Below are positions 42,681-52,403 of a stretch of DNA of 64,000 bases, piece after piece. Both the position numbers and the translations under genes were made by a program. Below the pieces are notes generated by a model. That model was given only the letters and a program-made list of their open reading frames with translations, had not been told where the DNA came from and made no database searches. The stretch is taken from positions 62,001 to 126,000 of the forward strand of contig CAOJOK010000002.1 of assembly GCA_948440265.1 (NCBI GenBank). Direction: 5' to 3'. Within the stretch, counting starts at the first letter, position 1. Each line of letters opens with the position of its first letter. The stretch is from an uncultured Clostridia bacterium. GTDB lineage: Bacteria > Bacillota > Clostridia > Christensenellales > Pumilibacteraceae.

Positions 42681-43310
42681 CTAATACGAATTTTTCAGCT
42701 TTTTGTATTTCGACTTTTTTAATTCCTTTGTTTTTAAGTCGAAGTCCTTTTCGCCGAGATAATACTCGGATTGCTTGATTTTATCATCTAAAAAGCCCTG
42801 TGTTATAAAATAACTTTTGTTTTTGTCGTTTATGTATAAAACAATCGCTTTATCGAGCGGTATCGTATAAGAGCTATCCGTTTTATAATAGGCAATCCAA
42901 TCATCGCTGTTTTGTCGAATACCGTAAAGCGTATTTAATGAGTCGTAAAACTTATTCAAATACCGTATGTCTTTTCTTCTCGATTTGCCTTCGCCGAAAA
43001 AAGATACAACTTCCAGCCAATCGGCTATTTCATATTCGGTATTGACTTTCAGCGTGATATCTTCGTCGCTGTTCCAATCGGTAGCCATAATAATTCGACA
43101 ATATGCACCTGCCCAATCGGACAAGTATTCGTCGTTTATTTTTTTCGAATAATACAATCCGAGCGCATACTTGACTTTATCGAGACTGAAATACTTATCG
43201 AATGAATTATTCAAATCGTATTCCGTTTCGGGTCGCGAAAGAAATGCTTTCAATTCTTCCTGCGCAAGCTTACAGTCGATAACTTTTTCAAATAATTCCG
43301 TATCAGGCAT
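42681..43310 (-). CDS. Uncharacterised cytoplasmic protein next to the defence operon
   Basis: A 209-residue protein, acidic in the first half and lysine-rich at the end. It has no signal peptide or membrane helix. The pattern 'YALGLYYSKKINDEYLSDWAGAYCRIIM' and short size recall immunity proteins of toxin systems, but I cannot assign a family. It follows the nuclease/helicase gene by 63 bases with a possible own promoter (TTGATA, 17 bases, TATATA), so membership in that operon is uncertain. Confidence 0.65.
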   Translation of the reverse strand: MPDTELFEKVIDCKLAQEELKAFLSRPETEYDLNNSFDKYFSLDKVKYALGLYYSKKINDEYLSDWAGAYCRIIMATDWNSDEDITLKVNTEYEIADWLEVVSFFGEGKSRRKDIRYLNKFYDSLNTLYGIRQNSDDWIAYYKTDSSYTIPLDKAIVLYINDKNKSYFITQGFLDDKIKQSEYYLGEKDFDLKTKELKKSKYKKLKNSY

Positions 43311-43373
43311 ATTGACATTCCCTTTATATAAAAAACTGCTCGAAAAGTATCAAAATATCATTATTTTGTTGGT

Positions 43374-44858
43374 TTAGTTTTTTTTCATTAGTAGAAGAAT
43401 ATTAGTTAAAACAGATTCTGAACAAATTATCAGTGCCAATTTACTGCGCACCCTTGTCAATCCTTGATATAATAGCTTTTCAAATAAATAGTCGGGATTA
43501 GGGTGTTCTTGGGCTATCAATCGGTTATTTTGATAGTCCCAGTTATAATCCAAAATCATACATACGCCTTCGAATTCTTGTCCTATAACATTATGTGTAT
43601 TATGCTGACTCCTTTGATAATCTAATTGATGATTATACAATGAAGGAGTGAAAGATATGTAGGTATATCCTTGTTTTTCAAACTGTTTTGCTCTTTTTAT
43701 TGCTTTTTTTGTTTCAGGTTCATAAACAATAGTCACATTCGGAAAAGAATATTCTTCTCGATATTTTGATAAATCACACAGACATACAATGAATAACGCA
43801 AGTTCCTTATTCGTTCTAATTTTGTTTGTAAGTTTATATATATTTTCGACGCATAGATTGTCTATCGTTTCCGCTGTACGACGTCTTATTTCAGATGACG
43901 ATAATGTCTGACCTTCATCATAAGAAAAAATACAAGTTGTTTTTGACTTTTTTACCCATCTTTCAATTTTATTTAACGATTCGGTATATAATCTGTGTGC
44001 TTCATCTACAATTACAATATCAACATCCTTAATTTCGCGAAATTTCAGCTCTTTTGCTGATATAATTTTAATATTCTTTAGTGTAGCATTGAGATTATTA
44101 TGACCTTCACACAGTATTCCACTATGTACTACAAGTACTTTTCTTGAATTAGATAATTCCCTTGCTATATCATAAATTAACAATGTTTTCCCCGTGCCAG
44201 GACCACCGGTAATTCCAGCAAAACGACCCTGCGTATTAGTGCACACATACTCTAAAATAACTTTTTTAATATTTTCCTGATTTTCCGTCAACAAATAATC
44301 TCCCTCTAAAAATCTATCTGTAGAATTTAATGGCGATACAAGAATATTGCCCGGCTTAAAAATTGTGTCAAGATCGATATATTCACTTGCCCCAGCCGTA
44401 TTTATTGCGTTTGATAAGTCTTGTAACGTAACTCGTATTAAATTGCTTTCATCGTTTAATGTATATACCGACTTTGTAGAAGAAATAAAAATAAAAGACC
44501 GAAGTACTTGTTTGTTGACAAGTTTTAAATAATGCAAATTTTGAAGCAGCTGTCGCTTTAACTTCTCATCAGACACTTTTTCTCTTTTAAGTTCTATATT
44601 AAGGCATACGGATTCCGTTATTTTTAACAAATCAAATTCTTTATTTAGTTGTGGAACGATATATCCGTAAATGAAATCATCCGTATTTCCAGATTCTACC
44701 GAAACATTTTCTATCAAACATTTAATGTCTAAAATTTCTTGATGTCTATATTGATGCTCTTCATCAATACCGCAAATATATCGGATGTAACACTCCGACA
44801 ATGTTTCATTATCAACTAATTTTATCATATCAATTAGTGATACATTTTTATTTTTCAC
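43374..44858 (-). CDS. PD-(D/E)XK-like nuclease fused to an SF1/DUF2075 helicase
   Basis: A 494-residue protein. The C-terminal two-thirds is a helicase-type NTPase: Walker A 'GGPGTGKT' (218-225), Walker B 'IVIVDEAH' (Asp285-Glu286), 'TNKIRTN', and a final motif 'LLYQGLTRVRSKLALII' as in UvrD/DUF2075 proteins. The N-terminal part shows Asp76 ... Glu89-Leu-Lys91 in 'EFDLLKITESVCLNIELK', followed by a Gln/Tyr helix, the layout of a PD-(D/E)XK nuclease. The start is GTG 44858, overlapping the specificity-subunit stop (GTGA) with GGGAG upstream, so the genes are translationally coupled. Probable effector or accessory of the restriction system. Confidence 0.8.
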   Translation of the reverse strand: MKNKNVSLIDMIKLVDNETLSECYIRYICGIDEEHQYRHQEILDIKCLIENVSVESGNTDDFIYGYIVPQLNKEFDLLKITESVCLNIELKREKVSDEKLKRQLLQNLHYLKLVNKQVLRSFIFISSTKSVYTLNDESNLIRVTLQDLSNAINTAGASEYIDLDTIFKPGNILVSPLNSTDRFLEGDYLLTENQENIKKVILEYVCTNTQGRFAGITGGPGTGKTLLIYDIARELSNSRKVLVVHSGILCEGHNNLNATLKNIKIISAKELKFREIKDVDIVIVDEAHRLYTESLNKIERWVKKSKTTCIFSYDEGQTLSSSEIRRRTAETIDNLCVENIYKLTNKIRTNKELALFIVCLCDLSKYREEYSFPNVTIVYEPETKKAIKRAKQFEKQGYTYISFTPSLYNHQLDYQRSQHNTHNVIGQEFEGVCMILDYNWDYQNNRLIAQEHPNPDYLFEKLLYQGLTRVRSKLALIICSESVLTNILLLMKKN

Positions 44859-45991
44859 AGGCTACTCCCATAAAGATTAAATATATCTCCGATTATATTT
44901 TTTGTTGCTTTGATTTTTCTATCAGAATATAGCACAACATCTTTAATTACAAGTTTTTGAATGGCAGATATGAAAGTATCCATAGCCGAATAATCGGGTT
45001 TGCTGTCTTTTGTGGGAAGAAGAATATCCAACTCATCGGCATCTTTTGCATAAAAATTTCGCGAATAATCGAATTTACCCGTATGCGATGACTTATGTAT
45101 AGCGGTTGTGACGAATATCGCCGCGTGTTCGGGCAGATGTTCTGTGTGAACCACGGCAACGTGGTCGTCTGCACCATAACGGAAGTTGCGATATTTTGCA
45201 GAGCCAAACATATCAATAGTGGTTGTATTGCTTTCGAAAATTTCCACTTCATTTCCGATATAATCAGAAATACCTTCATAAGTTTCGCCGGCAGTTACGA
45301 AAGGTAAATCTCCTTGTATTCTATCGGCACTTTTCAATCGTTTGCCGCGAGTAGATTTACCAAATAATTTTTCAAGATTATACGGTTGCCACTCAAATGA
45401 GTTAAAAGTATTAAGAATTTTTATCTCTTCATCTGTCAAAGTATAATCTTTTAAGCCTGTAACGGATAAGTAAGCTTCCAGCTCGGCTATACGCCGAGCT
45501 TCCAGCTCGGCTACAAAGTTTTCCATAAACGCAAAGTCTATTTGACCGCCTTTTATAGGAAGTGGGATTTTAATATTTTTTGCGATATTCCAATGTCGAG
45601 CATATCCTTTATTAGGAATATTTCTTTTCCAAGCAGACAGTATAAATAATAATACTTTTATATCTTTTATATATTTAGGTCTTAATATTTTAACATTGTC
45701 CGCGACCGAAAAACTCTTATATGTAATATTAAAACTTCTTGTATGATCTCCAAAAATGACAAACACGGGATTTTGCTCAGTAACTTTATAGTCAGGTATA
45801 TAATCAGTATAGCCAATTATTCCATTGTTCGCCGATTCGGAAGAAAATACGGGAATAGCTCCGTTTGCAGATAAGTCCGCTTTTGTAAGTTTGCGACCTA
45901 CCGTGATAGGCTCAAAAAAATCGTTATATTCATATTCGCCCCACTCAACGCTTTGCAATTTTTCGTTAAGTGAGGCATCTATTTTCCCAAG
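44855..45991 (-). CDS. Restriction-modification specificity subunit (BcgI-B/HsdS type)
   Basis: A 378-residue protein with two target-recognition halves. The first holds 'FFEPITVGRKLTKADLSANGAIPVFSSES', the second 'LEKLFGKSTRGKRLKSADRIQGDLPFVTAGET', each followed by a helical spacer. In the spacer an 8-residue unit repeats (AELEARRI-AELEAYLS). The frame is open to TTG 46042, but I prefer TTG 45991 because GGAGG lies eight bases before it; the overlap with the methylase gene is then 13 bases. It determines the DNA sequence bound by the complex. Confidence 0.88.
   Translation of the reverse strand, partial: LGKIDASLNEKLQSVEWGEYEYNDFFEPITVGRKLTKADLSANGAIPVFSSESANNGIIGYTDYIPDYKVTEQNPVFVIFGDHTRSFNITYKSFSVADNVKILRPKYIKDIKVLLFILSAWKRNIPNKGYARHWNIAKNIKIPLPIKGGQIDFAFMENFVAELEARRIAELEAYLSVTGLKDYTLTDEEIKILNTFNSFEWQPYNLEKLFGKSTRGKRLKSADRIQGDLPFVTAGETYEGISDYIGNEVEIFESNTTTIDMFGSAKYRNFRYGADDHVAVVHTEHLPEHAAIFVTTAIHKSSHTGKFDYSRNFYAKDADELDILLPTKDSKPDYSAMDTFISAIQKLVIKDVVLYSDRKIKATKNIIGDIFNLYGSSL
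45473..45520. repeat. Two 24-bp repeats in the specificity gene spacer
   Basis: AGCTTCCAGCTCGGCTA occurs at 45473-45489 and 45497-45513 (24-base period, in frame). Repeat-number changes in HsdS spacers are known to alter the gap in the recognized sequence. GCTCGGC-TATAC-GCCGAGC forms a perfect inverted repeat across the junction. Confidence 0.75.
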
Positions 45992-48030
45992 CGGTCGTCC
46001 TCCGTCGTGCTTTGTCCTTTTAATAGGCAAGAAACTTCCCAAGCAAGATAATCACTTACCGTCTTTTTGAAATCATCAAGCGTGGGTTTTGTGTCTATCG
46101 GTGCAGTCTGATTCCAATCGGCACCATTTTCAGGGTCGATATGCCCTTCATAATATTCGTTTTCGGTAAATATATTTAGTTTCGATTTCCCGAAACGTAC
46201 CAAATCAACAAGTTCGGCATAGCGTTCTTTTGCTCTGTTTGTATCTTTAAGATTGCAACTTGCTTTTTTACGGTTTGTTCTTGTATATCCGTCGTTGGAA
46301 AAATCGATAAATTTTACAATATCATCTTTTTGATGCGCTTCTCCCACTCTAAAAACATATATATTTGTTTGTACACTCGATTTTCCCACAAACAAATCTA
46401 TCGGCATTTTTATGCTCGCGAGCAATGTACTATGCAGTAAAATCTTTTTATTATATTCGACTGCCTTCCCCGAGCCTGCCGAGTTTTGTATGATAATCGC
46501 GGCGTAACCTTTGTTCATCATAGAAAGTGCTTTTTCTACAAATACCATTCCGTTGCCCGCTGCCGAGTAGGGAGGGTTGAGCACAAACGCAGTCGCGGGA
46601 AACTTTTTGTCTGTATTGCCGAAACCATAATTGCCGTCAAAATCTTTCAGCGAATCTTTGTTCAGTATGTTGGAACTTCCGTCGCCCATTAAAATCATAT
46701 TAAGAATGGCAAGCATATAAACGCTTGGCAGAATCTCCAAACCAAGCAGTTGTTGCGCTTTTATTGCCGCACATTTTACCGCTAATTCCTCGGGTGATTT
46801 GATTTTGTTTTTCGCATCGATAAGCATTTCGTTCATCGATGCAACGAGAAGTCCCGCAGAACCCGTTGCAAAGTCCCACACATACGAATCTTTGTCTACA
46901 CGTGCAAGTTTTGCCAACAGCGTGGATATGTAAAACGGCGTCAATACAACATCATTCAGTTTGTCTTGTGAGAAACCTAGCCAATTATACATTTCGTTAA
47001 ATAGTTTACCTGTAAAGTCAGTTGTTAAGCCGATTTTATAGTAGATACCCAAATCGTCCACGATTTTTGTAAATACGCGCTTTAATTGGCTTTCTCCGTT
47101 TTCGGGTTTGTTGATATTATCGGTAGTGAGCGTGTTTGCAAGTGTGCGAATAATTAAATCTTTCTTTTCTTGCGGCAAACTCTTCTCGTTCAAAAACGCT
47201 TTAATCTTGCGTAAGATTATATCGCCGTCGCGGTTGCCCTCTTCGATTGACGATTTCAATTCCGATTTTTCAAGCGCGGAAACTTTGTTCGAAATACCGA
47301 GCGTTGCGATAATAGATGCAGCAACAAGATAAACACGGTCGTTTTCGCCGAGTCCTTTTTCGCTTTGATAAATATCGTTATTTAGTTTAACAAGACTTGC
47401 ATCGATTTCACGCTCGCGCTGTTCTTTCAGTTTGTCGATTTCTGCTTGCGACAACGACAACCGTTTAACTTTTTCGATAAACTCGTCGAAGTTCTCTTTT
47501 TTAAGGAAAGAAAAATCAGTGTAATCGTCAACTATTTGCCCGATGCCGAAATTGCTTTTCGAGACGAAATATACGCCTATGGAGTGTTGCAGTTTGCCAT
47601 ACTCGTTTTTATAGCCCGTCATTCCGATAGCGATAATTTCGGTATAACTCGTATAGTGCAATAAGGCATTGGCATAATGTACCGCGCCGTTTACGGCATA
47701 GGAATTTATGTTCTTATAATCGGGCAGATTCTTTGCCGTTTTATTTGCAATTTGACCGTCGCTATCCCGCTTAACGAGCTTGTCTTTGTAGCCCTTATAT
47801 TCTATCAAAATAGGATATGAAACCAGATTTTTATCTCGTAACAATAACTTTGCATCCGGACGGTTGCCACCAATGCCGCCGTTTTTGGAAGCGTAATCGT
47901 TGAGAGCTTGGTCTATTTCCATATTCAAAGATTCTTGCTCTAATTTATAATCAAGCCCGTAAGCTTTAAGCCAGCCATTTGCCAAATCTGCAATATTGGG
48001 TTCGACCGATTGTATTTTCACTTTCGCCAT
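45979..48030 (-). CDS. Combined restriction endonuclease/N6-adenine methyltransferase (BcgI-A-like)
   Basis: A 683-residue protein. An N-terminal PD-(D/E)XK nuclease has Asp59 ('NRPDAKLLL') and Glu77-Tyr-Lys79 ('PILIEYKG'). A helical HsdM-like region and a gamma-class methyltransferase core follow, with motif I 'DFATGSAGLL' (from 386) and motif IV 'NPPY' (485-488). One chain therefore cuts and methylates, as in type IIB/IIG enzymes such as BcgI; no HsdR gene is present. With the next gene it would form the active complex. Promoter and AGGAG site are clear upstream of ATG 48030. Confidence 0.9.
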   Translation of the reverse strand: MAKVKIQSVEPNIADLANGWLKAYGLDYKLEQESLNMEIDQALNDYASKNGGIGGNRPDAKLLLRDKNLVSYPILIEYKGYKDKLVKRDSDGQIANKTAKNLPDYKNINSYAVNGAVHYANALLHYTSYTEIIAIGMTGYKNEYGKLQHSIGVYFVSKSNFGIGQIVDDYTDFSFLKKENFDEFIEKVKRLSLSQAEIDKLKEQREREIDASLVKLNNDIYQSEKGLGENDRVYLVAASIIATLGISNKVSALEKSELKSSIEEGNRDGDIILRKIKAFLNEKSLPQEKKDLIIRTLANTLTTDNINKPENGESQLKRVFTKIVDDLGIYYKIGLTTDFTGKLFNEMYNWLGFSQDKLNDVVLTPFYISTLLAKLARVDKDSYVWDFATGSAGLLVASMNEMLIDAKNKIKSPEELAVKCAAIKAQQLLGLEILPSVYMLAILNMILMGDGSSNILNKDSLKDFDGNYGFGNTDKKFPATAFVLNPPYSAAGNGMVFVEKALSMMNKGYAAIIIQNSAGSGKAVEYNKKILLHSTLLASIKMPIDLFVGKSSVQTNIYVFRVGEAHQKDDIVKFIDFSNDGYTRTNRKKASCNLKDTNRAKERYAELVDLVRFGKSKLNIFTENEYYEGHIDPENGADWNQTAPIDTKPTLDDFKKTVSDYLAWEVSCLLKGQSTTEDDRLGK

Positions 48031-48159: not shown

Positions 48160-48252
48160 TGGCGGAGTGAGAGGGATTTGAACCCTCGCTACAGATAAAC
48201 CCGTACTACCTCCTTAGCAGGGAGGCCCCTTGAGCCACTTGGGTATCACTCC
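48160..48252 (-). tRNA. tRNA-Ser(GCT)
   Basis: Class II cloverleaf with a long variable arm. Acceptor GGAGTGA / TCACTCC, anticodon loop CTGCTAA (anticodon GCT), T-arm GAGGGTTCAAATCCCTC, encoded CCA. Confidence 0.96.
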
Positions 48253-48280: not shown

Positions 48281-48368
48281 TGGCGGAGAGAGAGGGATTC
48301 GAACCCCCGGTCCCTTTCGAAACGCCGGTTTTCAAGACCGGTGCCTTCAACCACTCGGCCATCTCTCC
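48281..48368 (-). tRNA. tRNA-Ser(TGA)
   Basis: Class II cloverleaf. Acceptor GGAGAGA / TCTCTCC, anticodon loop CTTGAAA (anticodon TGA), long variable arm, CCA encoded. It is probably co-transcribed with tRNA-Ser(GCT) 28 bases downstream. Confidence 0.96.
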
Positions 48369-48385: not shown

Positions 48386-48415
48386 ATTATATCCTATCGT
48401 TTCCGATATTGTCAA
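48386..48415 (-). promoter_or_regulatory. Promoter of the tRNA-Ser pair
   Basis: Minus strand: -35 TTGACA, 18-base spacer, -10 TATAAT, preceded by TCAAATGC (the shared -35 extension). Confidence 0.8.
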
Positions 48416-48428
48416 GCATTTGACCCCA

Positions 48429-49355
48429 TTATTCCCCGTCTGTTTTAACATAGGCAGCCATTACGGAGACTTTAATCGTGTCCCCATAGGAATCATCCAT
48501 ATCCGCGCCCAAAATTATATCGGTAGACGGCGAGACTGCTCCGCGCAGACGCTCGGCAATATAGTTTACATCCTCCAAAGCCAAATTCTTTCCCGCCACA
48601 AAAATCAAAACTCTATCGGCACCGTCAAGCGAGATATTTTGCATAGGACTGTTCAAAGCCGTTCCGACAGCTTTTTCGAGACGGTCTTCGCCGCTGCCGC
48701 TTCCTGTTCCGTAATACAGTTGTCCGCTGCCGCTCAAAAACTCTCTTATATCACCCAAATCCAAATTTAATACTTTCGGCGCGGTTATGTAGTCGGATAT
48801 GTTCTTGATAATATCGACCGCAACGCCGTTTATATAGTCCATAGCTTTTGCATAGGAGCCTTCGCCCAAAACGCAAGCGACCTTTTCCGACGGTATAACC
48901 ACCGTGCCGTCCGCATACTCTTTAAGTTTATTATACCACATTTGCGTTTCTTGCCGCCGCTTTTCTCCTTCGAATTTGAACGGCTCGGCAACGATTGCCA
49001 TTGTCGTAATATCCAACTGTTCGGCTATATGCGCAAGCACGGTGGACATACCGTATCCCACGCAATCACCCACTCCCGAAACGATAAACAATAAATCCGT
49101 TTCATAAAGAGCGTCTACAAATTTATCGGAATGGCTTTCCACTGCCTTACCGCCGTACAGCTCGTTTACGAGAGCGCCGCCGCCTTCCGCACTTTTATCC
49201 CAGACGTGAAAATAGTTCTTACACCGTGTCAAAGGCTGCGTATCAATATTGACCGCATAGTATTCCGCATAAGGAAACTGCTCGCCTATCAGGCGGTCCA
49301 CAATATCGCAACCGCCGCCGCCCATTCCGAATACTTTGATTTTTGGCTTTAACAT
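48429..49355 (-). CDS. FtsZ-like tubulin-fold protein with altered GTP-binding loop
   Basis: A 308-residue protein. 'IKVFGMGGGGCDIVDRLI' and 'AVNIDTQPL' match the FtsZ N-terminus. 'LDLGDIREFLSGSGQLYYGTGSGSGEDRLEKAV' matches the T7-loop region, keeping Asn197, Asp199 and Asp202. The tubulin signature GGGTGTG is changed to G-D-C-V-G-Y-G (94-102 region 'SGVGDCVGYGM'). There is no C-terminal FtsA/ZipA-binding tail. It may be a divergent cytoskeletal paralogue that modulates or co-polymerises with FtsZ. It stands alone next to tRNA genes. Confidence 0.82.
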   Translation of the reverse strand: MLKPKIKVFGMGGGGCDIVDRLIGEQFPYAEYYAVNIDTQPLTRCKNYFHVWDKSAEGGGALVNELYGGKAVESHSDKFVDALYETDLLFIVSGVGDCVGYGMSTVLAHIAEQLDITTMAIVAEPFKFEGEKRRQETQMWYNKLKEYADGTVVIPSEKVACVLGEGSYAKAMDYINGVAVDIIKNISDYITAPKVLNLDLGDIREFLSGSGQLYYGTGSGSGEDRLEKAVGTALNSPMQNISLDGADRVLIFVAGKNLALEDVNYIAERLRGAVSPSTDIILGADMDDSYGDTIKVSVMAAYVKTDGE

Positions 49356-49457
49356 ATTTTCTTCCAGTCGCTCCTTACCGCATTATTATAGCACTTTAAG
49401 CCGCAATTATCAACGATTTACACGCATTATGCGTTTCTTGTTTTATCCTGCTTATTC

Positions 49458-49486
49458 TTGACAACCGCGCCGAAGCATTGTATAAT
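49458..49486 (+). promoter_or_regulatory. tRNA-Gly promoter
   Basis: TTGACA, 17-base spacer, TATAAT, 12 bases before the tRNA 5' end. Confidence 0.85.
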
Positions 49487-49498
49487 ATTCTTGTTTAT

Positions 49499-49573
49499 GC
49501 GGAAGTGGCTCAACGGTAGAGCGTCAGCTTCCCAAGCTGGACGTTGCGGGTTCGAATCCCGTCTTCCGCTCCA
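49499..49573 (+). tRNA. tRNA-Gly(CCC)
   Basis: Cloverleaf with acceptor GCGGAAG / CTTCCGC, anticodon loop TTCCCAA (anticodon CCC), T-arm GCGGGTTCGAATCCCGT, encoded CCA. Confidence 0.96.
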
Positions 49574-50597: not shown

Positions 50598-52403
50598 TTA
50601 ATACCAATCGTGCTTTTCGTTTCTGTCGAGTGCGGCAATTCTGCTCATTTCATTTTCGGAAAGTTCAAAATCGAATACCGAGATATTTTCAAGAATGTGC
50701 GCAGGATTAGACGAGCCGGGAATTGCAACCACGCCGCGCTGTAAGTGCCAACGCAAAATTACCTGTGCGGCGGAAACACTGTGAGCGTTTGCGATATCAA
50801 CGATAGTCGTATCGGAAAGCATTGCGCCCGTATGTCCTCTGCCGCCGAACGGATACCAAGCCTGCATTACGATTCCGAGATTGTGCATATACGGCACGAC
50901 GGCTTTTTCTTGATAGTACGGGTGTATTTCGTTTTGAATAAGCGCAGGCATAATATTGACTTGTGCAATAAAGTCGTCGATTTCTTCGATATACCAATTC
51001 GATAACCCGATGGAGCGTATTTTGCCCTGTTCGACAAACTTTTCTATTGCCTTATAAGCCTTGACGTCGTTTGCGCCGGGATGATGCAACAGCATCATAT
51101 CTATATATTCGATATCGAGTTTATCAAGCGAATCTTGTATTGCCTGTTCGGGGTTAGCGAACTGCGAGCCGGGATATATCTTTGTGATTACGAAAATATC
51201 TTCGCGCGGTATGCCGCTTTCTCTCACTGCTTGCCCGACTTCTCGCTCGTTACCGTACATATAGGCTGTATCTATAAGCCGAACGCCTTGCGATAAAGCA
51301 GATTTTACGGAATTGACGCAGGTTTGCCCCATAAGGGAATATGTGCCAAGACCTAATATCGGCATTTCATAACCGCTGTTGAGCCTAACGGTAGGCGCGC
51401 ATCCGTTTACACCGCTTGCCAAATCAAATTCCGAAACGCTTGATTTATTTGTCGAAAGCGAAAACGTAACGGTTACATTTCCTTGTCCGAGAACAGATAG
51501 CAATTCGCTTTTGGTGACATTTTCTATTTTTCCAAGTCTTGTAAAATTCCAACTGTTTATATCGTAATAAATCGTAATCTGATTGCCTTGATATAAAATA
51601 ATATCACCGGCAGAAGTTGTGATTTGCTCGTCGTTGCGCGGCAAATCAAAACCAAGTGCACCGACCTTTTCAAAATTGCCGTAATCGTGCATCTCGACCG
51701 TAACGGGCGAATTTTTAAGACGTTCGGCAAGCGCTTGCGCGCTTGAATTGTCTGCAAGGGTTGCAGTAAGCGTTTTGCTACCAATTGTAATATTAAGTTT
51801 TGTTTTTATTTTATTAGCGTTCAGATTAAATTCCTTTACCCAATTACTTATTTCAGATTGACTTGTGCCGCTTGAAAATCGTTTGCCGCCTTTCCAATCG
51901 GCATTTGCGGCCAGACTATGTAAATTCGTGTCGCTACTGCCGATTCCGCTTGAATGAGAAGTGCAGAACGGGATTATGATTTTACCCGAGAAATCGTAAC
52001 TTTCAAGGAACGTGTAAATAATTTTCGGTGCATCTCCGTGCCAGATAGGATAACCGAGAAAGATAATATCGTATTTATCGAGATTGTCTATTTTTCCCGA
52101 TATTGCAGGACGGGCAGACGAATCGGCTTGTTCTTTATCGGCTCTGCCGTTTGTGTAATATTTCAAATCGTCTGCCGTATAAGGAACTTCGGGGACGATT
52201 TCATAAAGCGTTCCTTTTGTTTCGGTTGCAATGCTATTCGCAATGCCTTCCGTTGTATTTGTGCAAGAAAAATATGCAATCAACACATTATTTACCCCCG
52301 TACCGACGCCCGACGGCGTATTATTCGGATTGTTATTTACACAAGCGGTAAAGCCGAATAAGAACAATAAGAGCGTTGAAATAGCGGGAATTACTTTTTT
52401 CAT
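50598..52403 (-). CDS. Lipoprotein fusion: flavodoxin, cyclophilin-like domain, aldo/keto reductase
   Basis: A 601-residue protein. Lipobox FTAC (Cys21) is followed by a flavodoxin-like domain (about 38-190, 'VLIAYFSCTNTTEGIANSIA', 'IIFLGYPIWHGDAPKII') and a small beta-barrel of the cyclophilin_like type (about 200-300, 'AQALAERLKNSPVTVEMHDYGNFEKVG'). A full aldo/keto reductase fills ~325-601, with 'LIDTAYMYGNE' (Asp, Tyr), 'VITKIYPG' (Lys) and 'MLLHHPG' (His). It would carry flavin and NAD(P)H chemistry on one exported chain. Placing an NADPH enzyme outside the membrane is puzzling. It is second to last in the redox operon. Confidence 0.88.
   Translation of the reverse strand: MKKVIPAISTLLLFLFGFTACVNNNPNNTPSGVGTGVNNVLIAYFSCTNTTEGIANSIATETKGTLYEIVPEVPYTADDLKYYTNGRADKEQADSSARPAISGKIDNLDKYDIIFLGYPIWHGDAPKIIYTFLESYDFSGKIIIPFCTSHSSGIGSSDTNLHSLAANADWKGGKRFSSGTSQSEISNWVKEFNLNANKIKTKLNITIGSKTLTATLADNSSAQALAERLKNSPVTVEMHDYGNFEKVGALGFDLPRNDEQITTSAGDIILYQGNQITIYYDINSWNFTRLGKIENVTKSELLSVLGQGNVTVTFSLSTNKSSVSEFDLASGVNGCAPTVRLNSGYEMPILGLGTYSLMGQTCVNSVKSALSQGVRLIDTAYMYGNEREVGQAVRESGIPREDIFVITKIYPGSQFANPEQAIQDSLDKLDIEYIDMMLLHHPGANDVKAYKAIEKFVEQGKIRSIGLSNWYIEEIDDFIAQVNIMPALIQNEIHPYYQEKAVVPYMHNLGIVMQAWYPFGGRGHTGAMLSDTTIVDIANAHSVSAAQVILRWHLQRGVVAIPGSSNPAHILENISVFDFELSENEMSRIAALDRNEKHDWY

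Follow-up and report, generated by a model that had tools for sequence, protein, structure and literature searches.

A divergent FtsZ paralogue with an altered GTP signature loop and an intact T7 loop, encoded between tRNA genes of a Clostridia bacterium

In an FtsZ filament, each active site is shared between neighbours, the T7 loop of the following subunit completing the site around the bound GTP, and these filaments are under the control of many unrelated proteins. Among such regulators MciZ, a peptide that caps the filaments of B. subtilis FtsZ, binds their bottom (T7) surface, and growth has been tentatively assigned to this T7-exposed (bottom) end (PMC8936486). Some bacteria, though few, are known to carry an additional ftsZ away from the division cluster (PMC9871819). 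Of the three FtsZ homologues of Agrobacterium tumefaciens, the essential one alone has full length, including linker and tail (PMC13170164). The FtsZ of Nitrosopumilus maritimus has a degenerate signature, AGKAGSA, is thought not to bind GTP, has lost T7 and does not polymerise (PMC3684127). More divergent members of the family are FtsZl1 and FtsZl2, which keep GGGTG(S/T)G, FtsZl1 being found with vWA, OmpA and GTPase genes (PMC2875224), and the archaeal CetZ, whose C-terminus has no recognisable Pfam domain (PMC9871819).

Here we describe an ftsZ-like gene carried by a gut-type Clostridia bacterium. Its product has lost the GTP signature, keeps an intact T7 loop, has no tail and coexists with a canonical FtsZ, a combination that we did not find in the open-access literature. 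The gene and its surroundings are given by their positions in the window, that is, the whole stretch of 64,000 nucleotides that was analysed:

48160..48252, minus strand: tRNA-Ser(GCT)
48281..48368, minus strand: tRNA-Ser(TGA), the left neighbour
48386..48415, minus strand: promoter of tRNA-Ser(TGA), TTGACA-18-TATAAT, also present in the sister species
48429..49355, minus strand: ftsZ-like gene, an ORF of 308 aa with its ATG at 49355 and its TAA at 48431-48429
49361..49376, minus strand: ribosome-binding-site-like AAGGAG / GGAAG upstream of the ATG, by direct reading of the sequence
49385..49413, minus strand: promoter-like site of the ftsZ-like gene, TTGATA-17-TATAAT with extended TG, 11/12 matches
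49458..49486, plus strand: promoter of tRNA-Gly, TTGACA-17-TATAAT
49499..49573, plus strand: tRNA-Gly(CCC), the right neighbour, divergent

The ftsZ-like gene occupies exactly the 1130 bp gap between tRNA-Ser(TGA) and tRNA-Gly(CCC). In the sister species (one other species of the genus was compared) the two tRNA-Ser genes and tRNA-Gly follow in the same order, and the gap between Ser(TGA) and Gly is 161 bp long and gene-free. The stop codon of the ftsZ-like gene precedes the -35 box of tRNA-Ser(TGA) by 13 bp, and both flanking tRNA promoters are intact. Promoter-like sites occur in the region in roughly the number expected by chance (3 found, against a mean of 2.2 in shuffles), and it is the placement just upstream of the gene that makes 49385..49413 a fitting candidate for its promoter. 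Codon use is host-like, with the same score as the main ftsZ of the genome (0.033) and a GC3 of 0.51, against 0.49 for the main ftsZ. The first-pass annotation had located the gene apart from any division cluster, which its flanking by tRNA genes bears out. A TubZ/PhuZ-type segregation protein was considered and dropped, as no gene context supports it. Further along the window, positions 50598-52403 hold a lipoprotein-like ORF of 601 aa that fuses flavodoxin, cyclophilin-like and aldo/keto reductase domains.

Beyond the tRNA-Ser pair, the block at 42681-48030 encodes a methyltransferase (type IIG/I in PADLOC), a specificity subunit, an AbiO/Nhi-like helicase (450 bits) and a 209-aa protein of no assigned family, and its codon use is foreign (GC3 0.24-0.42). 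In the sister species this place is taken by different restriction-type genes, among them, by direct reading of the protein, a cytosine-methyltransferase-like one. The far side of the tRNA-Ser pair is a defence hotspot. A gene kept in such a hotspot could act as a decoy for FtsZ-attacking phage or toxin proteins, and a precedent is found in phage T7 Gp0.4, which sequesters FtsZ in a complex that can trigger immunity (PMC13423816). The location of the ftsZ-like gene two tRNAs away from the methyltransferase/specificity pair and the AbiO/Nhi-like helicase, with other restriction-type genes on the same side in the sister species, is in keeping with this role. We nevertheless consider a decoy extremely unlikely: the codon use of the gene is native, unlike that of the defence genes, the tRNA-Ser pair separates it from the defence block, and it matches no PADLOC model.

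The domains and loops of the 308-aa protein are located as follows, with residue equivalences in S. aureus FtsZ numbering:

48876..49343, minus strand: Tubulin/FtsZ GTPase domain, residues 5-160 (Pfam PF00091, 75.8 bits)
49302..49328, minus strand: T1 loop GMGGGGCDI, residues 10-18; glycines kept, N25 equivalent changed to D17
49161..49184, minus strand: T3 loop GGGALVNE, residues 58-65; AGAN changed to ALVN (G72 to L62, A73 to V63)
49050..49070, minus strand: T4 signature loop GDCVGYG, residues 96-102, replacing GGGTGTG
48957..48983, minus strand: T5 region PFKFEGEKR, residues 125-133; E139 and R143 equivalents kept
48888-48890, minus strand: guanine-site N166 changed to S156, by residue alignment
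48828..48842, minus strand: H7 guanine-site residues, F183 changed to M172 and D187 to N176
48750..48767, minus strand: T7 synergy loop NLDLGD, residues 197-202; catalytic N, D and D intact
48450..48719, minus strand: FtsZ_C domain, residues 213-302 (Pfam PF12327, 65.6 bits)

Both domains score well above the Pfam cut-offs (33 bits for Tubulin, 27 bits for FtsZ_C). Furthermore, the protein matches TIGR00065, the ftsZ equivalog model, along the model length with 198.3 bits (E 2e-58), which excludes a chance match, and on this sequence match alone its membership of the FtsZ family is beyond doubt. An AlphaFold model (pLDDT 88, pTM 0.89) was built from an alignment of 47 related, canonical FtsZ proteins, an input that biases it toward the FtsZ fold; a fold search with this model returned the FtsZ structures of B. 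subtilis, S. aureus, M. tuberculosis and others at TM 0.86-0.92. The protein therefore has the GTPase domain, the FtsZ_C domain and the predicted fold by which FtsZ sensu stricto is recognised, together with the T7 motif N-x-D-x-x-D (N197, D199, D202). On the other hand, its score lies below the curated cut-off of TIGR00065 (198.3 against 295.2 bits) and it does not carry the GGGTGTG signature. The C-terminal linker and conserved peptide are absent too: the protein stops about 7 residues past FtsZ_C, where the canonical FtsZ of this genome has a long linker and tail, in agreement with the earlier claim that the division-partner tail is missing.

The assembly of this genome (29 contigs, 98% complete) contains, on another contig, a canonical FtsZ of 423 aa with GGGTGTG, linker and tail, which scores 401 bits against the ftsZ model and is encoded next to an ftsA-like gene (159.6 bits, slightly below the model cut-off of 175.85). 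The first-pass annotation had made its reading depend on the short protein not being the only FtsZ of the organism; the presence of the 423-aa copy settles this and makes the short protein a paralogue, 35% identical to it. The closest named relative of the canonical copy comes from Candidatus Gallimonas (uncultured Clostridia). In this canonical FtsZ (L001 748-2019), the two positions that form the R67-D97 salt bridge between subunits (S. aureus numbering) are both histidine; the paralogue, unlike it, keeps D at position 97. Two further tubulin matches in the genome, one of them inside the AbiO-like helicase, were weak (15-19 bits, below the cut-off) and were rejected.

Residue by residue, the paralogue departs from FtsZ at positions that are otherwise fixed. 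G107, G108, T109, G72 and N25 are invariant in 138/138 canonical FtsZs, from its own class and beyond, and are replaced in the paralogue by D97, C98, V99, L62 and D17, respectively. Since A73, N166, F183 and D187 are substituted as well, gamma-phosphate and guanine contacts are both affected. Retained are the T1 glycines, A71, E139, R143, D46, Q48 and the T7 residues N208, D210 and D213; indeed, N197, D199 and D202 of the paralogue fall exactly on the T7 residues of the canonical alignment. Both halves of the original observation, an altered GTP signature and an intact T7 loop, hence stand. The nucleotide face is also partly preserved, through the equivalents of D46, Q48, E139 and R143.

To what extent this amounts to a contrast between interface and pocket can be judged from two residue lists, both taken from an independent structural paper on SaFtsZ filaments: D46, Q48, R143, N208, D210 and D213 are key for subunit association or hydrolysis, and A71, G72, A73, G108, T109 and N25 make gamma-phosphate, water or nucleotide contacts (PMC8936486). 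The paralogue keeps 6/6 of the former and 1/6 of the latter (A71; Fisher p 0.015). This pattern fits a subunit that could complete the active site of a neighbour and would bind GTP poorly itself. Among near-invariant columns (at least 97% invariant, n=77), 45 are kept (58%) and 32 are lost, with losses throughout the protein. Loss is not significantly concentrated in T3/T4, where 6/15 columns are kept and 9/15 lost, compared with 39/62 kept and 23/62 lost elsewhere (p 0.15). The interface-versus-pocket contrast is thus real at the named residues of the alignment, and divergence is nevertheless protein-wide.

The state of the pocket bears on whether the paralogue could be a working GTPase that tolerates an altered T4 loop, in effect an alternative FtsZ with its own dynamics. 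The T1 glycines, E139, R143 and all catalytic T7 residues are those of such an enzyme, and T3/T4 contacts would be made partly via the backbone. However, G107D, G108C, T109V and G72L fall on positions conserved in all 138 canonical proteins, and substitution of one glycine of the T4 loop is enough to cripple the E. coli protein: G105S drops GTPase activity from 7 to 0.47 per min and weakens GTP binding (PMC4603965). By analogy, three adjacent T4 changes together with T111Y should be more damaging than G105S alone, and we find a working GTPase very improbable.

The same residues can be read as those of an independent cytomotive or scaffold filament, self-polymerising with another nucleotide or none and unrelated to division. 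Cross-subunit residues are kept on both faces (the D46, Q48 and R143 equivalents on one, those of N208, D210 and D213 on the other), gamma-phosphate and guanine contacts are replaced, and the protein has no tail and is encoded away from division genes. We see this as quite unlikely, given that its FtsZ_C domain and T7 loop resemble those of FtsZ and that no partner or cargo genes are adjacent, the neighbours being tRNAs and then restriction and redox genes.

The age of the gene can be gauged from fourfold sites, which are saturated between the paralogue and the main ftsZ (14/53 identical); the main ftsZ genes of two congeners are identical at 60/150. Saturation, an open frame and the 58% of near-invariant columns that are kept argue for selection on the paralogue during most of its history. 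No orthologue was found in overlapping samples of 61 genomes of relatives, 396 of the order, 391 of the class, 74 of its own family, 398 of the phylum and 398 of family f15, the class, family, phylum and f15 searches having a strict E-value limit under which an orthologue as distant as the canonical FtsZs, or more so, might be missed. Nothing above 38% identity was found in any of these samples or in genome contigs, viral contigs, phages and plasmids (phage matches reached at most 35%, and the best plasmid match listed 33%), and the best-scoring homologues inspected carry the canonical signature. Nineteen viral-contig matches to the GDCVGYG pattern were discarded, as they are not FtsZ proteins. 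The pattern described here therefore rests on a single sequence.

In phylogenies the position of the paralogue is unstable and its branch extremely long. Topology tests do not reject its placement with the FtsZs of its own genus, of its own family or of family f15 (AU p 0.26-0.86). A hint toward f15 comes from 7/28 shared private residues, and tracing it through the 398 f15 genomes yielded no copy of the paralogue. Either the gene is an old duplicate that the sisters have lost, or it came in from a donor outside the sampled genomes. In both cases it could be an ftsZ under relaxed selection, still made and drifting with no dedicated function. The long branch, the loss of 32/77 near-invariant columns across the whole protein and the restriction to one genome, with no copy at the syntenic site in the sister species, all speak for relaxation. 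Against it stand the open frame, the intact promoter-like site and host-like codon use, the conservation of 6/6 published key interface residues, a predicted fold that appears well packed, and the fact that 58% of near-invariant columns are kept at an overall identity of about 36%. We regard relaxation as unlikely, if a serious contender. The gene's own promoter-like site, its host-like codons and a frame that stays open despite saturated fourfold sites suggest instead that divergence has been filtered by selection.

The reading that we tentatively prefer, at somewhat less than an even chance, is that the divergent FtsZ paralogue would be a pseudo-GTPase-like partner subunit that uses its T7 face to dock on canonical FtsZ and caps or otherwise modulates the filaments. 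It is favoured by the predicted FtsZ fold, the coexisting canonical FtsZ, the absence of a tail and the signs of past selection just listed, by the contrast of 6/6 interface against 1/6 pocket residues with N166S, F183M and D187N at the guanine site, and by the effect of G105S in E. coli FtsZ (PMC4603965). It is weakened by the lack of a significant concentration of losses in T3/T4 (p 0.15), by the single sequence, with no orthologue found and no gene in the sister species, and by the D46, Q48 and R143 equivalents kept on the nucleotide face.

The intact T7 face of this partner subunit would dock onto the GTP-bearing face of canonical FtsZ and complete that active site. Its own pocket, devoid of gamma-phosphate and guanine contacts, would add the next subunit poorly, and with no tail it would provide neither membrane tether nor partner binding, so that filaments would end up capped, shortened or diluted. 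If growth takes place at the bottom end, the place of the paralogue would be within filaments or at their other, nucleotide-exposed end, and treadmilling or annealing would be altered. With its D46, Q48 and R143 equivalents kept, it may also accept a neighbour and its nucleotide face might still bind something; as these residues contact the T7 loop of the next subunit, a pure end-cap role is not required. We infer from sequence comparison that the paralogue would bind GTP weakly, assemble together with canonical FtsZ and affect its filaments. That a natural, tail-less pseudo-GTPase FtsZ, with its catalytic T7 face intact and a pocket that no longer reads GTP, could be used by the cell to cap the filaments of its own Z-ring, or to tune their dynamics, from within is a doubtful, though plausible, extension. 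If the partner-subunit reading is true, a protein that has lost the nucleotide side and retained the catalytic one would cleanly separate, in nature, the two halves of a composite active site, and the paralogue would be a tool to decide the growth end of FtsZ filaments. In any event, the signature loop, fixed elsewhere, can drift in a bacterial FtsZ paralogue when division is served by a normal FtsZ.

Other second FtsZ-like genes in the order differ from this one, and comprise split genes, a TIR-FtsZ-FtsK fusion, N-domain-only proteins and a 402-aa protein. The fusion (L084 5152-8019, genome G036 of the same family) is 955 aa long and joins TIR and a full FtsZ-like part (Tubulin and FtsZ_C, GGGMGSG) to an FtsK/SpoIIIE motor that has a gamma domain. 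When its TIR and FtsZ parts were searched against 200 genomes of the order, the matches listed covered the FtsZ part alone, in ordinary FtsZ-sized frames; this looks like an unusual, possibly defence-related architecture. In the reduced genomes of family f29, proteins of 224-244 aa (L086 5415-6134, L087 5443-6117, L064 799-1533, L066 312-1019) consist of the FtsZ GTPase domain only, with GGGTGSG kept and neither T7 nor FtsZ_C. In L086 and L087 this gene is preceded by small genes for HTH-like and CxxC-type proteins, an arrangement that suggests a recurrent cluster. The 402-aa FtsZ-like protein (L085 4633-5841, genome G280) has a GGSMGGA signature and an unrelated C-terminal part, and the N-x-D-x-x-D T7 motif was not found in it.

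Compared with the known systems, the gene is best filed as a divergent FtsZ paralogue, since FtsZ sensu stricto, FtsZl1/2 and CetZ each fail on a defining test. It resembles canonical bacterial FtsZ in both domains, fold, T1 glycines, T5 E/R and T7 N-D-D, and differs from it in its GDCVGYG T4 loop, T3 and guanine-site changes, missing linker and tail, and score (198 against 295 bits). Like FtsZl1 and FtsZl2 it is a divergent FtsZ-tubulin family protein encoded outside division clusters; unlike them it lacks GGGTG(S/T)G, has FtsZ_C and is not in a vWA/OmpA/GTPase operon. The FtsZ_C domain (65.6 bits) and the bacterial genome set it apart from CetZ. It shares a degenerate GTP signature with N. 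maritimus FtsZ, but keeps T7 and coexists with a normal FtsZ. As in Agrobacterium, an extra FtsZ without linker and C-terminal peptide stands beside a full-length one, although in a different lineage and here as a single gene between tRNAs. Finally, like MciZ, the paralogue would act as a non-polymerising partner at the filament end; whereas MciZ is an unrelated peptide on the T7 surface, the paralogue is a complete subunit with the FtsZ fold and would offer a T7 surface of its own.
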